Assembly (NCBI RefSeq): GCF_005877885.1
Contig: NZ_VCHY01000021.1
Span: forward strand, 1-64,000
Source: Labilibacter sediminis
GTDB taxonomy: Bacteria; Bacteroidota; Bacteroidia; Bacteroidales; Marinilabiliaceae
DNA length: 64,000 nt
Direction: 5' to 3'
The position numbers were made by a program, and so were the translations under genes. The notes below the pieces were generated by a model that saw nothing but the letters and a program-made list of their open reading frames with translations, did no database searches and was not told where the DNA came from. Below are positions 12,326 to 23,821 of this stretch, piece by piece. The stretch's first letter is position 1; the number at the start of each line of letters is the position of its first letter.

Positions 12326-13384
12326 TTATCCTGCAATATATTTTGCTAACCAATCTCCAACTTCTGAAGTTTTGTAAGCTTTTTCTTTATTGATATCCTC
12401 AGTAACTACACCTTCTTCAAGTGATTTGTTAACAGCCTCACGAACTAATGCAGCCTCTTCTAACAAATCAAGCGACTCTAATAACATAGCAGCAGAAAGA
12501 ACAGTAGCCACCGGGTTAGCAATATCTTTACCTGCAGCTTGTGGATAAGAACCGTGAATTGGCTCAAATACAGAAGTGTGAACACCAACAGAAGCAGAAG
12601 GCAATAAACCTAAAGAACCTGTAATTACAGAAGCCTCATCACTAATGATATCACCAAACATATTTTCAGTAACGATTACGTCAAATTTCTTTGGCCATTG
12701 AATCAACTGCATAGCTGCATTATCAACAAACATGTAGTCTACCTCAATATCTTTGTGGTCAGCTTCCATGCTTTGTGCTACCTGTCTCCAAAGACGAGAA
12801 GTAGCCAATACGTTAGCTTTATCAACAACAGTTAAACGCTTATCACGCTTATCAGCATAAGAAAAGGCTAATTTTAAGATACGCTCAATCTCTTCAGTTG
12901 TATAAGTACAAGTATCAAAAGCCTTGGTTAAGTCTTCTGAACGACCTTTTTCACCAAAGTAAATACCACCTGTTAACTCACGCACCACAACTAAGTCAGA
13001 ACCTTCAACGATATCTAAACGAAGTGGACTTTTATCAAGTAGTGATGGGAATGTAGCTACCGGGCGAATATTAGCATATAAACCAAGTTTTTTACGCATC
13101 GCTAAAAGTCCTTGCTCCGGACGTACCTTAGCCGAAGGATCATTATCGAATTTAGGATCTCCAATAGCACCAAACAATACAGCATCAGAGTTCATACAAA
13201 CTTCGTGCGTAGCTTCCGGATAAGGATCACCAACTTCATCAATTGCGCATGCACCTACAATAGCAGGAGTGTAAACAATTTCATGATTATACTTTGTTGC
13301 AACAGCATCAAGCACTTTTTGGGCTTGTGCTACAATCTCGGGACCAATTCCGTCCCCGGCCAATACACCAATATTCAATTTCAT
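12326..13384 (-). CDS. leuB: 3-isopropylmalate dehydrogenase
   Basis: Oxidatively decarboxylates 3-isopropylmalate to 2-oxoisocaproate, the third leucine step; with citramalate-derived methylmalate it also gives 2-oxobutyrate. The 352 residues show [12 protein letters not shown] at the N-terminus, the substrate Arg region [22 protein letters not shown], the catalytic Lys of VDKANVL, metal-site Asp in [10 protein letters not shown] and the NAD-specific [15 protein letters not shown]. It is last in the cluster, after a 108-bp gap carrying a palindromic repeat, and is followed by a strong terminator. Confidence 0.97.
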
Positions 13385-13492: not shown

Positions 13493-15049
13493 TTACTTTT
13501 CAAATTTATCTTTCCAATCAGCCTGACGTGTTAAAGTGCCTTCTTCAATAACATTAAGCACTTTTATCGTAGCTTCAATAGCTGCTTGTGTTTGGTCGGC
13601 AGCCAGGCCTCTTGATTTCATTTCAACTCCTTTATAGTCCCAGGTAATCACTGTTTCTACCAGGGCATCTGTTTTTCCACCCGGAGGAATAGCCACCCAG
13701 TAATCAACCAGTACAGGGTGTACTTTATCGAGTTTTGTATATATTCTCCATAGCGCTTTCATGAAAGCATCGTACTGACCATCGCCAATCGCTGTTTCAT
13801 CATATCTTTTACCATTAACCTCTATGCTAACAGAAGCTAATGGTCTGAGATCGTGCGCCAAAGATAAGTTATAATTTCTAATTTTAATAGCATCCTTAAC
13901 CGATGTGCTCTTTAAAACATCAGCAATAATAAAAGGAAGATCCTCAATGGTTACCACTTCTTTTTTATCGCCAAGCTCAATCACTTTCTGGGTTACCTTT
14001 TTCATATCTTCAGGTCCCAGCTCAATACCTAATTCCTCGAGGTTTTTCTTGATATTCGCCTTACCTGAAGTTTTACCTAACGCATAACGACGATTACGCC
14101 CAAAACGTTCCGGCATCAGGTTATTAAAGTACAAGTTGTCTTTACTATCACCATCAGCATGCACCCCGCTACACTGGGTAAAAACATTATATCCGGTTAT
14201 CGGCTGATTTTCTGCAATACGTAAGCCCGAAAACTGTTCTACTACCTTGCTAACTCTTGTAATATTTGATTCATCTATACTATTTTCAAGTTTAAGATGA
14301 TCATTTAAGATTCCAATAACACTGGCAAGTGGTGCATTTCCGGCTCTTTCGCCAAGACCATTGACCGTAGTATGAATTCCTTTGATACCTGTTTTTAATG
14401 CTGAAAACACATTGGCCACAGCCATATCATAATCATTATGCGCATGAAAATCAAAATGTGTATCCGGAAACTTTTTGATAATATCGGAGCAAAAATCGAA
14501 GGTCTGATCAGGATTCAATACCCCTAAAGTATCGGGAAGCATAATCCTTTTCACATTCATTTTTTTAAGCGCATCAATCACAAAATAAACGTAATCAGGA
14601 GATGTAAGCATACCGTTACTCCAATCTTCAAGATATACATTTACTGTGATACCCATCTGATCAGCAATGTCAACCACCTTGGATACATCGGCCATATGCT
14701 CTTCTGGCGATTTTCGCAACTGGCCCGTAACATGCTTCAACGAACCTTTGGTTAATAAGTTAATCACCTTAGCACCGGCATCCTGAATCCATTTCAAAGA
14801 GATATCTCCATCTACAAAGCCAAGTACTTCAATCTTATCCAGACAATTATGCTTATTGGCCCACTCCGTAATTCGTTGAACCGCAGCAAATTCCCCCTCC
14901 GACACACGTGCAGAAGCTACTTCAATTCGATCAACTTTTACCTCTTCTAATAACAACCTGGCCATGGCCAGTTTTTCGCTTTCGTTGAATGACACTCCTG
15001 TGGTTTGCTCACCATCGCGGAGCGTAGTATCCATTACTTCAATTTTCAT
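13493..15049 (-). CDS. cimA: second LeuA-like enzyme (probable citramalate synthase)
   Basis: Member of the alpha-isopropylmalate/homocitrate synthase family, 518 residues: TIM barrel with [15 protein letters not shown], metal-binding HAHNDYD and [12 protein letters not shown], a linker, then a C-terminal LeuA-type regulatory domain (GDGQYDAFMKALWRIY). It differs clearly from the leuA of the same operon, so the two are not recent duplicates. In the operon context the likeliest role is (R)-citramalate synthesis from pyruvate and acetyl-CoA, with leuC, leuD and leuB completing a threonine-independent route to 2-oxobutyrate for isoleucine. A second isopropylmalate synthase is the alternative; sequence alone does not settle it. 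It may have its own promoter, because a 293-bp gap with a strong hairpin precedes it. Confidence 0.7.
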   Translation of the reverse strand: MKIEVMDTTLRDGEQTTGVSFNESEKLAMARLLLEEVKVDRIEVASARVSEGEFAAVQRITEWANKHNCLDKIEVLGFVDGDISLKWIQDAGAKVINLLTKGSLKHVTGQLRKSPEEHMADVSKVVDIADQMGITVNVYLEDWSNGMLTSPDYVYFVIDALKKMNVKRIMLPDTLGVLNPDQTFDFCSDIIKKFPDTHFDFHAHNDYDMAVANVFSALKTGIKGIHTTVNGLGERAGNAPLASVIGILNDHLKLENSIDESNITRVSKVVEQFSGLRIAENQPITGYNVFTQCSGVHADGDSKDNLYFNNLMPERFGRNRRYALGKTSGKANIKKNLEELGIELGPEDMKKVTQKVIELGDKKEVVTIEDLPFIIADVLKSTSVKDAIKIRNYNLSLAHDLRPLASVSIEVNGKRYDETAIGDGQYDAFMKALWRIYTKLDKVHPVLVDYWVAIPPGGKTDALVETVITWDYKGVEMKSRGLAADQTQAAIEATIKVLNVIEEGTLTRQADWKDKFEK

Positions 15050-15342: not shown

Positions 15343-15927
15343 TTATGCTCTGTCCTGCTCGTAGGCTTCTATCTCGTCTTTAACGCTCATCAAGTAATCG
15401 ATGTCATCAAATCCGTTCAGTAAACAGTTTTTCTTATAGCTATTAATATCAAAAGATTCCGTTTTACCGTTAGCTTTATTTGTAATAGTTTGCTCTTCAA
15501 GGTTCACTACTACAGTATTATCAGCACCTGCAGCAAATAAATCAGCTAAAAAAGCTTCAGAAATAACAACAGGTAAAACACCATTATTTAAAGAGTTATT
15601 TCTAAATATATCTGCAAAGAAACTAGAAACAACCACTTTAAATCCATACCCATCAACAGCCCAGGCAGCATGCTCACGGCTAGATCCAGAACCAAAGTTT
15701 TTACCTGCTACTAATACAGATCCTGAGTAATCAGGGTTATTTAATACAAAGTCGGCTTTAGGAGACCCATCTTTATTGTATCTCCAATCAGCGAATAAAT
15801 TATCACCAAAACCTTCTTTTGTTGTTGCTTTTAAGAAACGAGCCGGGATAATTTGATCCGTATCTACATTCTCAATAGGAAGAGGTACGTATGTTGACTC
15901 TAATGTTATAAATTTATTTATAGGCAT
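15343..15927 (-). CDS. leuD: 3-isopropylmalate dehydratase small subunit
   Basis: Swivel-domain subunit that pairs with LeuC to isomerise 2- to 3-isopropylmalate (and probably citramalate to methylmalate). The 194 residues contain the family marks [13 protein letters not shown] near residue 22, [16 protein letters not shown] and [17 protein letters not shown]. It begins 18 nt after leuC ends, so translation is closely linked. Confidence 0.97.
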
Positions 15928-15945: not shown

Positions 15946-17343
15946 TTATAAAGTACGAGGATCAGTAATTACACCTGTTACAGCACAAGCAGCAGCAGTC
16001 AATGGACCGGCTAATAACGTTCTTGAACCAGGACCTTGACGACCTTCGAAGTTACGGTTACTAGTTGCTACAGAATACTTTCCAGCAGGTACTTTATCAT
16101 CATTCATGGCTAAACAAGCTGAACAACCAGGCTGACGTAATTCAAAACCTGCCTCCTCAAGAATATCTCTTAAGCCTTCCGCAATAACTTGATCTTCTAC
16201 CTGGTGCGATCCCGGAACAATCCAAGCTGTAACACCGTCTGCCTTTTTCTTACCTTTAACAGCATTTGCAAAAGCACGTATATCTTCAATACGACCGTTG
16301 GTACATGAACCTACAAAAATCCAATCTACTTTTTTACCTAGCATCTTTTCCCCAGGAGCATATCCCATATACTCAAGAGACTTTAAATAAGTCTTTTGAG
16401 AAGCTTCTTCAACAGTATCAAGTGTTGGAATATTTTGCGTGATACCAACACCCATTCCCGGGTTAGTACCATAAGTAATCATTGGCTCAATATCCGCTGC
16501 ATCAAAGTTGTAAATTTTGTCAAACTCAGCATCTTCATCAGTTACAAGAGCTTTCCATTTTTCAACAGTTTTATCCCAATCAGCACCTTTAGGGGCATAT
16601 TCGCGTCCTTTTACGTACTCAATTGTTTTTTCATCAGGCGCTATTAAACCACCACGTGCTCCCATCTCGATACTCATGTTACAAACAGTCATACGGCCTT
16701 CCATTGATAGGTTACGGATCGCAGAACCCGAGAACTCCACAAAATAACCAGTACCACCACCAGTAGTTAATTTTGAAATAACATATAACACAAGGTCTTT
16801 AGCAGAAACACCTTTCCCCAACTCACCATCGATATTAATTTTCATGGTTTTCGGACGAGGTTGCATGATACATTGTGTAGATAGTACCATTTCAACTTCA
16901 GAGGTACCAATACCAAATGCAATACTACCAAATGCTCCGTGTGTAGAAGTATGGCTATCTCCACATACTATTGTCATTCCCGGTTGAGTAATTCCGTTTT
17001 CCGGTCCAACAACGTGTACTACACCATTTTTAGGATGTCCTAATCCAAATAATGTTACATCGTTTTCCTCACAGTTTTTTGTAAGGGTATCAACCTGAAA
17101 CCTTGAAACCTCATCTGCTATAGGAAGATGCTGATTAATAGTAGGAATGTTGTGATCAGGAGTTGCAAATGTGTTTTGCGGTCTGAATACTTTAATTCCA
17201 CGTGCCTTTAAGCCGGCGAATGCCTGCGGACTAGTCACCTCGTGAACTAAGTGACGATCGATATACAATACTGAAGGTCCATCCTCGATAGTCTTCACCT
17301 CGTGTATATCCCAAATCTTGTCAAAAAGCGTTTTCCCTGCCAA
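15946..17343 (-). CDS. leuC: 3-isopropylmalate dehydratase large subunit
   Basis: Aconitase-family [4Fe-4S] subunit, 465 residues. The cluster cysteines are visible in [11 protein letters not shown] and in [11 protein letters not shown]. Other signatures are [29 protein letters not shown] and [14 protein letters not shown]. Works as a complex with LeuD, encoded immediately downstream. It follows leuA after 119 bases that hold a palindromic repeat. Confidence 0.97.
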
Positions 17344-17462: not shown

Positions 17463-18956
17463 TTAAACTAGTTTTGATAATGCATCAAGATACGCCCAAA
17501 CAGAGGCGGTTAAAATATCTACATTAGCTCCAAAACCATGAACAGTTCTTCCATTCTCAGATAACTGAACGTGTACCTTACCAATATCATCAGAGCCTCT
17601 GGTTACAGCTTGTACTAAATACTCCTCAAGCGTAACTTTGATAGGAACAATTTTTTGAATGGCTGAAAACGCTGCATCAACAGGACCATCACCAGTTGCT
17701 GTTTCTGTTAATATTTTACCATTGTAATTCAAGGTAACTGTTGCCGATGGAATACAAGATTTTCCGCACATTACCTGGAATTTATCCAATTTTAATACGC
17801 GTTCTTCCTTCTTCTCATGCCCTACCAATATTTCAAGATCTTCATCTGAAATATCTTTTTTAGAGTCAGCTAATACCAAGAAGTTCTTATAAACCTGGTC
17901 TAACTTTTCTGTAGTTAAATCATAACCTAACACTTGTAATCTGTGCTTTAATGCGGCACGTCCACTACGAGCTGTTAATACAATACTCGACTCTTTAACA
18001 CCTACATCAGCCGGATCAATAATCTCGTAAGTTTCTCTGTTCTTTAAAACACCATCCTGGTGAATACCGGAAGAGTGTGCAAAAGCATTTCTACCTACAA
18101 TAGCTTTGTTAGCCTGAACAGGCATACGCATTAAGGTAGATACCAACTTACTTGTTTTTATAATTTGTTTGGCATCAATATCTGTTTTAAAATCTAAGTC
18201 CTTATGGCACTTAATAGCCATAACCACTTCTTCTAAAGCAGTATTACCAGCTCTTTCTCCTAATCCGTTTAAGGTTACCTCAACCTGACGAGCACCGTTA
18301 ATTACTCCGGATAAAGTATTGGCAGTAGCCATACCTAAATCGTTGTGACAGTGGGTTGACAAAATGGCCTTATCCACATTAGGAACATTATTTACTAAAT
18401 AGGCAATTTTAGCTCCATACTCGGATGGCAAACAGTAACCTGTTGTATCCGGAATATTTACCACTGTAGCACCGGCACCAATCACAGCTTCTACAACACG
18501 AGCCAAATATTCGTTTTCACTTCTACCTGCATCTTCCGCGTAAAATTCAACATCATCCACAAACTGACGGGCATATTTTACGGCTGCAACAGCACGCTCA
18601 ATAATCTCATCCGGATTCGAATTTAACTTTTGGTAGATATGGTAAGGAGAAGTTCCGATACCTGTATGAATACGACCTCTCTTCGCAAACTTTAAAGCAT
18701 CAGCTGCTACCTCGATATCTTTTTTTACTGCACGTGTTAAAGCACAGATGGTAGGATTACTCACTGCTTTTGATATTTCGACCACTGAGTTGAAATCCCC
18801 AGGACTAGAAATGGGGAACCCGGCCTCAATTACATCAACACCTAGTTTTTCGAGTTGCTTAGCTACTTCTATTTTTTCAATAGTGTTCAACTGGCAACCC
18901 GGAACTTGTTCTCCGTCCCTCAACGTGGTGTCAAATACATAAACTTTGTTGTCCAT
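17463..18956 (-). CDS. leuA: 2-isopropylmalate synthase
   Basis: Condenses 2-oxoisovalerate with acetyl-CoA, the first committed step to leucine. The 497-residue protein has the catalytic barrel ([30 protein letters not shown] with metal-binding His, [12 protein letters not shown]), a subdomain with [13 protein letters not shown], and the C-terminal leucine-binding regulatory domain ([27 protein letters not shown]), so leucine feedback is expected. Length is close to the 520 of E. coli LeuA. It lies between ilvN and leuC. Confidence 0.95.
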
Positions 18957-19029: not shown

Positions 19030-19584
19030 TTAAAACGATTCGATGCCTTTAATTTTGGCCTCTGTTCTTAGTTTTTTCAGATACTTTTCTAACAGCTCTG
19101 TTCTTAATTTGGTAATGGCAATACGACCGGAACGAACAAACTGCAATACGCCATACTTATCGAGTTTAACAAACAGCTCTTGCGTTTCTGCTTTATGACC
19201 CGACTTTTCAATTACGGTATATTCAGGAGTTACCTCCATAATACGCGCACCATACTGACGAACAATTTGCTCAATTTCGTTACCTGACAATAAAGCCGCT
19301 GTAGGCACTTTGTATAAAGCCAATTCCTGATGAATAATTTCATCGGTAGTAAATACAAATACCTTCAGTACATCCAGTTTCTTCTCTAACTGCCCTACCA
19401 ACTTATCAATTTGCTCACGTGTAGAATACACTACAATGGTGAACTTATGAATTCCTTCAAGAGCAGATTCCGAAGTATTTAAACTTTCAATATTTATGCT
19501 TCGACGTGTAAATGCCGTTGTAACCTGATTGAGCAAACCAACATGGTTCTCAGAAAATATGGTTAAGGTGAATTCTTGCTGCAT
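19030..19584 (-). CDS. ilvN: acetolactate synthase regulatory subunit
   Basis: Small subunit that activates IlvB and makes it sensitive to valine. The 184 residues start with an ACT domain (FTLTIFSENHVGLLNQVTTA, RRSINIESLNTS), in which the Gly-Leu-Leu-Asn segment forms the effector site. A second alpha/beta domain follows, with the motif ELALYKVPT and VIEKSGHKAETQELF. It begins 31 nt after ilvB, as expected for stoichiometric partners. Confidence 0.94.
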   Translation of the reverse strand: MQQEFTLTIFSENHVGLLNQVTTAFTRRSINIESLNTSESALEGIHKFTIVVYSTREQIDKLVGQLEKKLDVLKVFVFTTDEIIHQELALYKVPTAALLSGNEIEQIVRQYGARIMEVTPEYTVIEKSGHKAETQELFVKLDKYGVLQFVRSGRIAITKLRTELLEKYLKKLRTEAKIKGIESF

Positions 19585-19614: not shown

Positions 19615-21348
19615 CTATTCTAATCGGATATCTGATACAGAAGATCCTGATGGCACCATAGGAAATACATTTCCTTCTTTCTCCACGTTCACTTCCAGTA
19701 AGAATGATTCCTTGCTTTTAGCCATTCGCTCTATGGCTTCATCTAAATTTTCACGTTCACTCACCAAGGCAGTTTCAATACCATAACCTTTAGCAATCAT
19801 CTGAAAATCCGGATTTACCAACTCAGTGGAAGCATATCGTTTATCAAAGAATAACTCCTGCCACTGACGTACCATCCCTAAAAAGTTATTATTCAGGATG
19901 ATGATTTTAACTGCGGCTTTCGTTTGGAATATTGTTCCCAATTCCTGAAGTGTCATTTGAAAACCACCATCACCGATAAACACACATACTTCGCGATCAG
20001 GTACTCCCAACTTTGCACCTAAAGCAGCAGGAAGACCAAATCCCATGGTTCCTAAACCTCCAGAGGTAACAATACTTTTTGATTGCTTAAACTTAAAATA
20101 TCTGGATGCCATCATCTGGTGCTGACCTACATCAGTAACCAAAACAGCAGCATCATCAAAAGCTTTAGAAACCTTGTGAACTACCTCTCCCATCGTTATT
20201 CCTTTTTGGGTTGGAAAAACCTCATCAGAAATAACTTTTTCATTCTCTATCTTATCACAAGCCTTAAACTCTTCCATCCACTCTGAATGAGTGTTTGGTT
20301 TAACATCCTTGGTTAAAAGCGGTAAAGTTTCCTTTACATTACCCAAAACAGCAACATCTGCCTTAATTATCTTATTAACCTCAGCCGGATCAATTTCAAG
20401 GTGAATGACTTTAGCATTCTTAGCATATCTGGTTACATCACCGGTTACCCTGTCATCAAACCTCATACCAATGGCAATTAATACATCACATTCATTGGTT
20501 TTAATATTTGGTCCGTAATTACCATGCATACCCAGCATACCAACGTTTTGTTCGTAATCTGTAGGCATAGCCGAAAGTCCCAATAAGGTCCAGGCTGCAG
20601 GAATTCCTGTTTTATCTAAAAATGCTTTTAACTCTTCTTCTGCCTCTCCTAAAATAACACCCTGCCCAACTAAAGCCAATGGCTTTTTAGCAGCATTAAT
20701 TATATCAATGGCATCAATGATAGATTCCGGCTTAGTTAATGGTACTGGCGTATAACTACGTATATGATTTACTTTTTTATACTCAAAGTCAACCTCTCCA
20801 AACTGTGCATCTTTGGTAATATCAATTACTACCGGTCCCGGACGACCCGTTGATGCAATATGAAATGCTCTGGCAATAGCGTCAGGAATTTCCTCTGCAC
20901 TTTTTACCAAATAGTTCCATTTGGTTATTGGCTGAGTAATACCTACCACATCTATTTCCTGAAAAGCATCTGTTCCTAACAAAGGCGAACCAACCTGACC
21001 AGTAATAACAACCATCGGTGTTGAATCAATCATGGCATCAGCTATTCCGGTAACTGTATTCGTAGCCCCGGGACCCGAGGTAGCAAAACAGACACCCACT
21101 TTACCTGTTACTCTTGCAAATCCTTGCGCAGCATGAACAGCACCTTGTTCATGACGAGTGAGTACATGGTGCAATTTGTCCTGATAATCGTAAAGGGCAT
21201 CATAAACTGGCATGATAGCTCCTCCCGGATAACCGAATATTAAATCCACACCCTCACATAATAGTGATCGAAGCAATGCTTCTGAACCGGAAATTCTCTC
21301 TTTTCCTTTGTTGTTCTTCTCCATGAGTAATTGGCTTTGTGGTTCCAT
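19615..21348 (-). CDS. ilvB: acetolactate synthase catalytic subunit
   Basis: ThDP-, FAD- and Mg-dependent enzyme making acetolactate or acetohydroxybutyrate. The 577 residues show the three domains of the family: an N-terminal ThDP domain with the catalytic Glu in RHEQGAVHAAQG, a central FAD-binding domain (GMLGMHGNYGPN, ALVGQGVILGEAEEE), and a C-terminal ThDP domain with the GDGGFQMTLQEL..NNN motif. The annotated ATG gives an N-terminus about 20 residues longer than minimal (EKNNKGKERISGSEALL follows); a start at MEKNN is also possible. Together with ilvN it forms the holoenzyme. Confidence 0.96.
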   Translation of the reverse strand: MEPQSQLLMEKNNKGKERISGSEALLRSLLCEGVDLIFGYPGGAIMPVYDALYDYQDKLHHVLTRHEQGAVHAAQGFARVTGKVGVCFATSGPGATNTVTGIADAMIDSTPMVVITGQVGSPLLGTDAFQEIDVVGITQPITKWNYLVKSAEEIPDAIARAFHIASTGRPGPVVIDITKDAQFGEVDFEYKKVNHIRSYTPVPLTKPESIIDAIDIINAAKKPLALVGQGVILGEAEEELKAFLDKTGIPAAWTLLGLSAMPTDYEQNVGMLGMHGNYGPNIKTNECDVLIAIGMRFDDRVTGDVTRYAKNAKVIHLEIDPAEVNKIIKADVAVLGNVKETLPLLTKDVKPNTHSEWMEEFKACDKIENEKVISDEVFPTQKGITMGEVVHKVSKAFDDAAVLVTDVGQHQMMASRYFKFKQSKSIVTSGGLGTMGFGLPAALGAKLGVPDREVCVFIGDGGFQMTLQELGTIFQTKAAVKIIILNNNFLGMVRQWQELFFDKRYASTELVNPDFQMIAKGYGIETALVSERENLDEAIERMAKSKESFLLEVNVEKEGNVFPMVPSGSSVSDIRLE

Positions 21349-21417: not shown

Positions 21418-23244
21418 TTAAATTAATCTAACAGCTCCTCTATCTGCTGAACTTACAAGGCTTGCATAAGCTTTAAGCGCTTTTGATACTTTTCGTTCAC
21501 GAGGTTCGGGAGCAAAAGCTAAATCACCTTTAGCTTCTTCTGCTTTTCTTCTTGTTTCTAATTCTTCCTCCGACACCAATACGTTGATTGATCTTTTCGG
21601 AATATTAATTTCAATTTCGTCACCTGTTTGTACCAAACCAATAGCTCCACCTGCAGCTGCTTCAGGAGAAACATGTCCGATAGATAAACCGGATGTTCCA
21701 CCGGAAAATCTTCCATCTGTAATTAAGGCACATTTTTCACCCAGGTGACGTGACTTAATATATGATGTTGGGTAAAGCATTTCCTGCATTCCCGGTCCTC
21801 CTTTTGGCCCTTCATAGGTAATAATAACGACTTCGCCAGCGAGTACTTCCCCTGATAAAATTCCTTCACAAGCTGCATCCTGCGATTGATAAACTCTGGC
21901 CTTACCTTTAAATACAAAAATGGATTCATCAACACCTGCTGTTTTTACAACACAGCCATCTTGGGCAATATTTCCCTTAAGAACAGCTAAACCACCATCT
22001 TTGTTGTAAGCTTTTTCAACAGAACGAATACATCCACCTTCTCTGTCTAAATCAAGCTGCGCATAATGTGTATTTTGCGAACCCATAGTCAGGTTTCTAA
22101 TACCTGCCGGAGCACTTGTATAAATATCCTTAGCTTCTTCTGATACATCTGCATTGGTTACATCATACTTAGCAATCGCTTCTTTAAGTGTTAAACCATC
22201 TGCTCTTTTTACAGAATTATCCAATAGGTTTGCTTTATCCAATTCAGCCATAATAGCAATAATACCTCCGGCTCTGTTCACATCTTCAATATGGTAATGT
22301 GAGTTAGGTGCAACCTTAGATAATACAGGCGTATAACGAGAAATTTGATCGATATCATCCATTGTAAACTCAACTCCTGCTTCATGTGCGATGGCTAAAA
22401 TGTGTAGCACGGTATTGGTTGAACCACCCATGGCTACATCCAGAGTCATTGCATTTTTAAAAGCATCAAAAGTTGCGATAGAACGAGGCAATACTGAATC
22501 GTCACCATCTCTATAATACTTATAGGTATTTTCTACTATTATTTTAGCTGCTTTTTCGAAAAGTGCTTTTCGATTCTTGTGCGTAGCAACAATTGTACCA
22601 TTGCCAGGCAACGCTAACCCTATAGCTTCGTTTAAGCAGTTCATAGAGTTTGCTGTAAACATACCTGAACAAGAACCACATGTTGGACATGCGTTTTCTT
22701 CTACAGCGGCCACCTCACTATCTGAAACCGTATCATCGGCTGCCATCACCATGGCATCCACCAGGTCAAGTGCCTTGTCTCCAACCTTACCTGCTTCCAT
22801 TGGTCCGCCGGATACAAAAACAGCAGGGATATTTAATCGCATAGCAGCCATCAACATACCAGGTGTAATCTTATCACAATTACTGATACACACCATAGCA
22901 TCCACCTGATGGGCATTACACATATATTCTACACTATCTGCAATTACGTCCCTCGAAGGTAAAGAATACAACATACCATCGTGTCCCATGGCAATACCAT
23001 CATCAATGGCAATGGTATTAAACTCAGCAGCAAAGCAACCTTGCTTTTCAATTAGTTTTTTAACTTCCTGACCTATTTCATGCAAATGCACATGCCCCGG
23101 AACAAACTGAGTAAAGGAATTTACAATGGCAATCATTGGTTTTCCAAACTGTTCTTCTTTTACACCGTTAGCTCTCCATAAGCTACGCGCTCCAGCCATT
23201 CTGCGGCCTTCTGTTGTTGTTGCACTTCTTAATTTATTCTTCAT
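21418..23244 (-). CDS. ilvD: dihydroxy-acid dehydratase
   Basis: [Fe-S] enzyme dehydrating dihydroxy acids to 2-oxoisovalerate and 2-oxo-3-methylvalerate. The 608-residue form starts [20 protein letters not shown] at 23244. An in-frame upstream extension to 23295 exists but runs across the attenuator terminator, so I reject it. Cluster cysteines appear in [10 protein letters not shown] and [15 protein letters not shown]; the substrate Ser/Lys region is [16 protein letters not shown]. It is first in the ilv-leu operon and is preceded by a classical leader-peptide attenuator. Notably ilvC, the enzyme just before it in the pathway, is not in this cluster. Confidence 0.96.
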
Positions 23245-23273
23245 TTTCAATTTGGATATACTCAGTTTAAGAT

Positions 23274-23310
23274 AAAAAAAAACCTTCCTCAACATACTGT
23301 GAGAAAGGTT
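23274..23310 (-). terminator. attenuator terminator of the ilv-leu operon
   Basis: On the minus strand an 11-bp stem AACCTTTCTCA / TGAGGAAGGTT (one G-U pair, 8-nt loop) is followed by nine T. It lies between the leader peptide and ilvD. Its 5' arm (23301-23309, ACCTTTCTC) can instead pair with GAGAAATGGT at 23344-23353, one bulge, forming an antiterminator. In turn GAGAAATG can pair with CATTCTCA at 23390-23397 inside the leader peptide. This is the complete 1:2, 2:3, 3:4 arrangement of classical attenuation. Confidence 0.85.
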
Positions 23311-23357
23311 TATTAAAAAATCTTATATCTTTAATTTTTACACACCATTTCTCAATT

Positions 23358-23417
23358 CTACCTGATAATGACCAAGAGAACAACTTTAATGAGAATGAGT
23401 GAAAAAATACTGTTCAT
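23358..23417 (-). CDS. ilvL: ilv operon leader peptide
   Basis: ATG at 23417 encodes MNSIFSLILIKVVLLVIIR, then TAG. Twelve of 19 residues are Ile, Leu or Val, and all three amino acids made by the downstream operon are represented. The start follows an A-rich GCAAAACGAA and lies about 28 nt after the predicted transcription start. Segment 1 of the attenuator is in codons 7-10; ribosomes stalled on the Val-Val-Leu-Leu-Val-Ile-Ile run would mask it, freeing segment 2 to form the antiterminator. The symbol is used by analogy with the enterobacterial leader. Confidence 0.88.
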   Translation of the reverse strand: MNSIFSLILIKVVLLVIIR

Positions 23418-23450
23418 TTCGTTTTGCTTTTGTCGTTAATACAACGGTTA

Positions 23451-23480
23451 CAAATGTAAAGTTTTTTTTTAAACCTCAAA
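23451..23480 (-). promoter_or_regulatory. ilv-leu operon promoter
   Basis: Minus-strand TTTG (23477-23480), 18-nt spacer and TACATTTG (23451-23458), close to the Bacteroidota consensus though the spacer is one base short. It places the transcript start about 28 nt before the leader-peptide ATG. Confidence 0.7.
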
Positions 23481-23821
23481 AAAAATAAATGCTAAAATAT
23501 GTATATGCTTTTAATCTAATAGCAAAAACATCAGGCAACTTACGGTTTTTGCTGCATATTTTTACAAAAACACACCCGATTATTGCATGAATATACAATA
23601 ATTTCACACAAAATCATATCCTATTGGCTTACTGCACATTACAGCATGACAATTATCATTTTACTTTTGAGTCGATATACAGTTTAAAATACAATTAAAC
23701 CCAACCAATTGGCTTTATGTTAAAGATTAACTCTACTATTAATTGACAAGAAAAAAACTCTATTTATACCTTTTTTAAGCTTAACTCCAGTAAAAGGAAA
23801 GATTTAATTGCTAACTATTAT
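23481..23821. other. gene-free stretch upstream of the ilv promoter
   Basis: AT-rich, with no ORF of note. It separates the ilv operon from the rpoN-PAP2-DUF2007 group, both on the minus strand. I see no convincing terminator after the DUF2007 gene and no repeat family; an activator site for the ilv promoter may exist but is not recognisable. Confidence 0.4.

Follow-up and report, generated by a model that had tools for sequence, protein, structure and literature searches.

The ilv and leu attenuators of E. coli combine a leader peptide rich in the cognate amino acids, rare codons, and an antiterminator that competes with a U-tailed terminator. The leader described here, located upstream of ilvD in Labilibacter sediminis, shares with these enterobacterial attenuators the peptide, the rare codons, the competing structures and the class of operon. 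Unlike them, it belongs to another phylum, its stop codon lies near or on segment 2 (the upstream strand of the antiterminator), its protector pairing is weak, and its operon opens with ilvD and also holds leu genes. The likeness is one of architecture.

Outside the enterobacteria, the ilvD leader of the Staphylococcus aureus ilv-leu operon has mutational and reporter support (PMC5794164). As in the present locus, an ORF, a terminator and an antiterminator precede ilvD of an ilv-leu operon, but, according to the available text of that paper, the peptide is Leu-rich, CodY also acts and the organism belongs to the Firmicutes (PMC5794164). Actinobacterial ilvB leaders likewise carry an Ile/Val/Leu-rich ORF and a candidate terminator (available sections of PMC1262725 and PMC11857589), whereas there the ORF overlaps the candidate terminator. 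In the ilvB leader of S. coelicolor, codon substitution is described in the available sections as having been without effect (PMC1262725), so look-alikes can fail the codon test.

For Bacteroidota, a transcriptome map of Flavobacterium psychrophilum gave ‘strong clues’ that leader peptides control amino-acid operons by attenuation (PMC9723704). These leaders come from the same phylum, and ‘ilv’ is absent from that paper's main text in the version available. For the phylum, the accessible part of a further study describes long leaders whose short ORFs resemble leader peptides (PMC7366714), and RF01692 is listed as a trp-named cis-regulatory RNA motif of Bacteroidetes (PMC2864571, available portion). 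RF01692 is likewise a cis-regulatory RNA of Bacteroidetes, but the ilvD leader gives no Rfam match at the gathering score. Within the sources that a literature search brought up, many of them in partial text, we found no experimental demonstration of leader-peptide attenuation for a Bacteroidota amino-acid operon. A preliminary description of the locus, made from the sequence, had stated that no characterised example is known in Bacteroidota. This holds for experiments in the literature found, but predictions exist, and the statement is too strong for them because of the strong clues in the 2021 Flavobacterium study.

Layout of the leader and the operon

The analysed stretch of DNA (the window) comprises 64,000 nucleotides, and all features of the leader and its operon lie on its minus strand. 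Reading from 23480 to 23244, a promoter-like site is followed by a 19-codon ORF, segment 2, a hairpin with a T run, and ilvD. The coordinates of the preliminary description proved to be exact sequence matches, and the promoter-like site, peptide, antiterminator and terminator are all present in the order and spacing that it had claimed. The promoter-like sequence TTTG-N18-TACATTTG (23451..23480), identified by sequence match, fits the Bacteroidota-type promoter form. The motif TAYATTTGTA is present in all nine leaders of the genus. The leader ORF (23358..23417) encodes MNSIFSLILIKVVLLVIIR, in which 5 Ile, 4 Leu and 3 Val make up 12 of the 19 residues.

Segment 1, CATTCTCA (23390..23397), lies within the control codons and is the proposed partner of segment 2. 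The core of segment 2, GAGAAATGGT (23344..23353), matches exactly as first described; the complete 5′ strand of the antiterminator is TGAGAAATGGT (23344..23354), which starts 3 nt past the stop codon. Directly 3′ of it stands TGTGTA (23339..23344), which is TRTRTA-like in relatives (alignment A2 of 59 leaders). The core of segment 3, ACCTTTCTC (23301..23309), is likewise an exact match and belongs to the longer AAACCTTTCTCA (23300..23311), the partner of segment 2 in the antiterminator or of segment 4 in the terminator. Segment 4, TGAGGAAGGTTT (23280..23291), was assigned as the 3′ strand of the terminator by sequence and by the hairpin fold. The terminator had been described as an 11-bp stem with nine U. 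The hairpin (23280..23311; −13.9 kcal/mol) and the nine-T run that gives the U tail (23274..23282) are both there, but the stem folds as 12 bp and takes up the first three T. When the leader was folded as a whole, 3 of 200 dinucleotide shuffles folded equally well or better (z −2.83).

Downstream of the leader, the minus strand carries the run ilvD-ilvB-ilvN-leuA-leuC-leuD-(cimA-like)-leuB. The first structural gene, ilvD (21418..23244), encodes dihydroxy-acid dehydratase (TIGR00110, 790 bits against a cut-off of 618, obtained on the longer frame from 23295). It is followed by the large subunit of acetolactate synthase, ilvB (19615..21348; TIGR00118, 721 bits, cut-off 538), and by the small subunit, ilvN/ilvH (19030..19584; TIGR00119, 95 bits, cut-off 57). 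Leucine synthesis is represented by 2-isopropylmalate synthase, leuA (17463..18956; TIGR00973, 695 bits, cut-off 599), the large and small subunits of isopropylmalate dehydratase, leuC (15946..17343; TIGR00170, 661 bits, cut-off 560) and leuD (15343..15927; TIGR00171, 194 bits, cut-off 116), and 3-isopropylmalate dehydrogenase, leuB (12326..13384; TIGR00169, 448 bits, cut-off 353). Amid the leu genes lies a citramalate-synthase-like gene (13493..15049) that reaches 659 bits with NF042433 (Leptospira CimA), below the cut-off of 950; its presence suggests that isoleucine could be made from pyruvate. The start of ilvD is likely at 23244. The longest frame opens at the ATG at 23295 (minus), within the terminator hairpin, and automatic annotation may therefore begin ilvD too early and hide the attenuator.

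The leader peptide and its codons among relatives

By its fraction of Ile, Leu and Val, the leader ORF is tied for first among 678 ATG ORFs of 12–30 aa in the window, a ranking that counts nested starts. Its conservation was assessed in 71 genomes of the family from 21 genera. Three had no ilvD match and one (G041) a fragment only; 67 genomes gave 68 loci, two of them from G058. Within the 300 nt that precede ilvD, 63 of the 68 loci hold an ORF of 15–35 aa that is at least 40% Ile/Leu/Val, compared to 91 of 1360 dinucleotide shuffles; no such ORF was found at the other five. Upstream of other genes, such an ORF occurred in 5 of 57 regions (3/22 metY, 1/17 trpE and 1/18 hisG), taken from 21 relatives, 8 of which are from outside the family. 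Both the composition of the peptide and the stems are conserved in 9/9 genomes of the genus. In wider sets, the ORF recurs at the 63 family loci and the stems in the 59 leaders of A2.

A usable leader with terminator was obtained for 59 of the 68 family loci, and nine gave none. Left out of the mask model described below were loci with no leader above the score (L056, L070, L071), those in which the script found no terminator (L047, L055, L061) and those judged to be wrongly parsed (L051, L054, L073). For L007, where the script had chosen a later hairpin, the conserved terminator was entered manually. A set of 80 named loci, which includes many from outside Bacteroidota and a few leaders that duplicate the family set, extends the range. 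Here, leader and terminator precede ilvD in records labelled Bacteroides (L086, L091, L099, L121), Phocaeicola (L103, L104, L108, L144), Odoribacter (L138), Alistipes (L129, L140) and Prolixibacteraceae (L082, L098, L115). Two ilvD loci labelled Prevotella (L141, L148) and the ilvD loci of Desulfobulbaceae and Spirochaetes in this set showed no leader plus terminator. A class-wide draw of 149 genomes gave an ilvD-type match in 38. Besides the window's own, 29 loci were examined; 11 carry an Ile/Leu/Val-rich ORF and 10 a terminator as well. ORF and terminator were found together at all four Bacteroidales loci versus 6 of 25 outside the order, some of which possibly arose by chance. Judged by these sequences, the ilvD leader appears to be conserved across much of Bacteroidales.

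The leader ORFs also differ from other genes in codon choice. CTC and GTC are the rarest Leu and Val codons, respectively, in 17 long genes of the window, yet CTC supplies three of the four Leu codons of the window's leader ORF. Its share of Leu codons rises from 4.3% in the 17 genes to 50.4% in 62 family leader ORFs, and the share of GTC among Val codons from 3.4% to 39.9%; in this comparison the background comes from the window whereas the leader ORFs were drawn from the family at large, the three wrongly parsed loci among them. Pairing with GAG of segment 2 may partly hold the CTC codons in place. The GTC codons and a second CTC stretch fall outside segment 1. Pairwise codon swaps between leaders, counted with G001 omitted because of its shifted ORF, comprised 34 synonymous changes, 47 within Ile/Leu/Val and 53 to or from other residues.

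Alternative pairings and the position of the ribosome

The preliminary description had proposed three mutually exclusive pairings. Our data argue for 2:3 and for 3:4, and only faintly for 1:2. The alignment A2 has the consensus ~GTGAGAANGG for segment 2, CCTTTCTCAC for segment 3 and GAGAAAGG for segment 4; the region that separates segments 2 and 3 is variable. Its 59 leaders were picked for a clean segment 2, so that pair counts from A2 lean towards the motif. In the terminator, 95.9% of cells are paired in this alignment. Changes on both sides affect 8 of the 12 pairs, a value reached by 5 of 500 shuffles, and the 63 double-change cells (18.3 in shuffles) were reached by none of 500. In the TRTRTA-like stretch after segment 2, two T columns of A2 hardly vary; except for the first T, these columns lie outside the 2:3 pairing as counted. 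The stretch is perhaps a polymerase pause signal, which is a guess.

The 2:3 helix is paired in 86.2% of cells in A2, compared to 37–56% when the strands are slid against each other. For single leaders we used the set of the mask model, 96 leaders (59 from the family and 37 of the 80 named loci) of which 90 are distinct. Of these 90, 82 have a 2:3 duplex stronger than in shuffles (p<0.05) when a wider segment 2 region is allowed, a test designed after the outcome of a narrower one was known; L008, L021, L022, L032, L034, L100, L114 and L131 are not above shuffles, and the window on its own is marginal (p 0.045). The narrower test, with segment 2 taken only from about the stop codon onward, had given 67 of 90; most of the leaders that it missed have their segment 2 inside the ORF. 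Covariation in 2:3 is less pronounced. The 10 double-change cells (4 pairs) compare with 3.3 in shuffles, but the number of pairs with double changes is reached by 46 of 500 shuffles and that of further pair types by 125 of 500, so that two of five measures are within reach of shuffles. A register slid by −3 columns even exceeds the true one, with 14 double-change cells in 5 pairs. The support for 2:3 is conserved pairing rather than covariation, and this pairing is less well proven than the terminator. A segment 2 that is conserved without covarying could be expected if it has to match both segment 1 and segment 3 and, in part of the leaders, to hold codons as well. For 1:2, only 28 of the 90 leaders pair better than codon shuffles. 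Within the genus this helix is 90% paired versus 33–57% when slid, and 34 of 500 shuffles reach its covariation score.

The position of the stop codon was determined in leaders with a clean segment 2, defined as within two differences of GTGAGAATGG (75 of the 90 distinct leaders, the other 15 being left aside; the anchor of the window was set by hand). Counted from the start of segment 2, the stop codon begins between −8 and +24 nt in 73 of the 75, with 39 at −8 to −2, 20 at +1, one at +10 and 13 at +14 to +24. In the 20 leaders at +1, the TGA is itself part of segment 2. From this proximity or overlap, a ribosome at the end of the peptide is expected to mask segment 2 wholly or for the greater part.

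With the ribosome placed on the best Ile/Leu/Val codon, a simple mask model has segment 3 bound upstream (probability above 0.5) in 95 of 96 leaders; moving the ribosome to the stop codon brings this binding below 0.3 in 70 of 96. Both apply in 69 of 96 leaders, with segment 4 still unmade. Without a ribosome, upstream binding of segment 3 falls below 0.3 in only 17 of 96. The window fits less cleanly, with 0.96 for the stalled ribosome, 0.48 at the stop codon and 0.76 ribosome-free, and the last two values mean that shut-off in the absence of translation is not predicted. For the full-length window RNA at equilibrium, the terminator has a probability of 0.94 whatever the ribosome position. 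Antitermination therefore has to be kinetic and to occur before segment 4 is made.

The reading of the locus as a classical attenuator, put forward in the preliminary description, is supported by the conserved make-up of the peptide, by segments 2–4 and by the covarying terminator. Judged from sequence and folding, the leader most probably acts by ribosome-mediated transcription attenuation of the enterobacterial leader-peptide type, governed by the supply of branched-chain aminoacyl-tRNA. RNA polymerase would start about 25–30 nt upstream of the leader ORF, which a ribosome would translate. When charged Ile-, Leu- or Val-tRNA is scarce, the ribosome would stall in the control codons and cover segment 1, leaving segment 2 free. 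Free segment 2 (GAGAAAUGGU) could then capture segment 3 (ACCUUUCUC) before segment 4 is made; with 2:3 formed, no terminator would arise and the operon would be transcribed. With ample amino acids, the ribosome would reach the stop codon and its front edge would cover segment 2, so that segment 3 would pair with segment 4 and the polymerase would stop in the U run. In this scheme we infer where transcription begins, that the ORF is translated, that the ribosome stalls and polymerase reads through, and which of Ile, Leu and Val counts most.

Leaders of other amino-acid genes, rival explanations and meaning

Leaders that match the product of the downstream genes were also found elsewhere. A three-Trp pattern occurs upstream of trpE in 15 of 17 loci and a four-His pattern upstream of hisG in 13 of 18, and neither occurs in the other gene sets tested. 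The genome of the window itself carries the trpE leader MTKIVKNTWWWHWLFLN (L211) and the hisG leader MTNITHHHGHHFYLL (L243), both with strong terminators, and a Thr/Ile-rich ORF, MVYNLFHTITITTTSTITPWGV, before thrA (L272). By eye, the thrA leader is present in 8 of 9 loci of the genus and absent from 5 of 7 outside it. In the window, a mini-ORF encoding MMCCMMMSS (3869-3840, minus) stands ahead of metY (3736-2444, O-acetylhomoserine sulfhydrylase). ORFs of the type MMCRMMM and its variants precede metY in 9/9 loci of the genus, and a strict Met/Cys pattern is passed by 7 of 22 metY regions. The hairpin GCGCATTGTAT...ATAATGCGC, which comes after the mini-ORF, is conserved, with compensating variation by eye, and has no U run; mini-ORF and hairpin may possibly form a terminator-less Met/Cys leader.

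A covariance model trained on ilvD leaders alone matched 123 of 395 genomes of the phylum at E ≤0.01, a tally that is no census of attenuators because the matches include plain terminators (e.g. L165, L167, L168). Including the window, 30 of the matched loci were considered. Seventeen lie ahead of amino-acid biosynthesis genes, mostly with matching leaders, namely 5 ilvD, 3 leuA and 2 aminotransferase IV (ilvE-like) genes for the branched-chain part, and 2 Cys/Met-metabolism enzymes, 2 aspartokinase-type thrA and 3 trpE; all were identified by Pfam except the window's ilvD (TIGR00110). The leaders are Met/Cys-rich at the Cys/Met enzymes, Thr/Ile-rich at thrA and Trp-bearing at trpE, and the leuA leader L161 is the least clear fit. 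The other 13 loci are apparently plain terminators or were not resolved. In other Bacteroidota, L162 and L166 show Met/Cys-rich leaders, e.g. MQNQQFNIACKAMCNNMMQMCMMMCCACNRENVGASL, with terminators before a Cys/Met-metabolism enzyme.

One rival explanation keeps a translated peptide that senses branched-chain amino acids, with control by a route other than the 2:3 / 3:4 switch, such as nascent-peptide arrest, Rho access or effects at the level of translation. The weak 1:2 pairing, the weak covariation of 2:3 and the dominance of the terminator at equilibrium would all suit it. So would the metY leader, with its Met/Cys codons, conserved hairpin and lack of a U run, from which it follows that terminator-less leaders may exist in this genome, and the Streptomyces look-alike, whose codon mutations had no effect according to the available sections (PMC1262725). 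It would leave unexplained why the U-tailed terminator is conserved and covarying, why segment 2 is both conserved and complementary to segment 3, and why the stop codon is found close to segment 2 or overlapping it, and we consider it improbable, though worth some weight. A reading without any sensing, in which an ordinary terminator or constitutive attenuator follows the gene of a small hydrophobic membrane peptide, seems very unlikely to us. MNSIFSLILIKVVLLVIIR would indeed suit a membrane-spanning peptide, and Ile/Leu/Val-rich ORFs are not very rare in shuffled sequence (91/1360). However, leaders in the same genome are Trp-rich before trpE, His-rich before hisG and Thr/Ile-rich before thrA, rare codons are enriched, and the ORF is kept before ilvD in 63 of 68 loci.

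Direct binding of a ligand or tRNA by a riboswitch or T-box would also be compatible with a long, conserved and structured leader ahead of a biosynthetic operon. Here, however, conservation resides in codon meaning and in segments 2–4, while the sequence joining segments 2 and 3 varies, and Rfam gives no match at the gathering score, sub-threshold ones being far below the cut-offs. We give this explanation hardly any credence. At the gathering score, the whole window yielded tRNA and 16S rRNA only, with nothing at the leader, and a lax search of 23200-23500 yielded sub-threshold hits only. Seventeen loci with trp, his, met, thr, leu and ilvE leaders gave rRNA only, at one locus. The Bacteroid-trp motif RF01692 was considered and rejected, with no gathering-score match in the ilvD leader or in seven trpE loci.

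Leader-peptide attenuation as a class of mechanism is textbook knowledge; the wide conservation of the ilvD leader and the set of cognate leaders in one genome are less expected. We lean slightly towards a broader view, taken with all its parts, in which such attenuation would be general for amino-acid operons in Bacteroidales and in much of Bacteroidota. A single genome would then read the supply of branched-chain amino acids, Trp, His and Thr/Ile, as well as that of Met/Cys via a terminator-less leader before metY, and the ilvD leader (GTGAGAANGG / CCTTTCTCAC) would go back to a single ancestor of the order. If true, this would imply tight coupling of transcription and translation, which is little studied in this phylum. 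Classical attenuation requires a ribosome close behind RNA polymerase, and conserved, codon-biased attenuators across much of Bacteroidales would for this reason be indirect evidence of coupling. The conserved set would also offer ready-made reporters for testing it. Such attenuators draw attention to short ORFs and premature ends, which gene annotation can overlook. In the Bacteroidales, which include gut and environmental bacteria and in which such switches are barely documented, they suggest how amino-acid synthesis could follow supply without a dedicated repressor.
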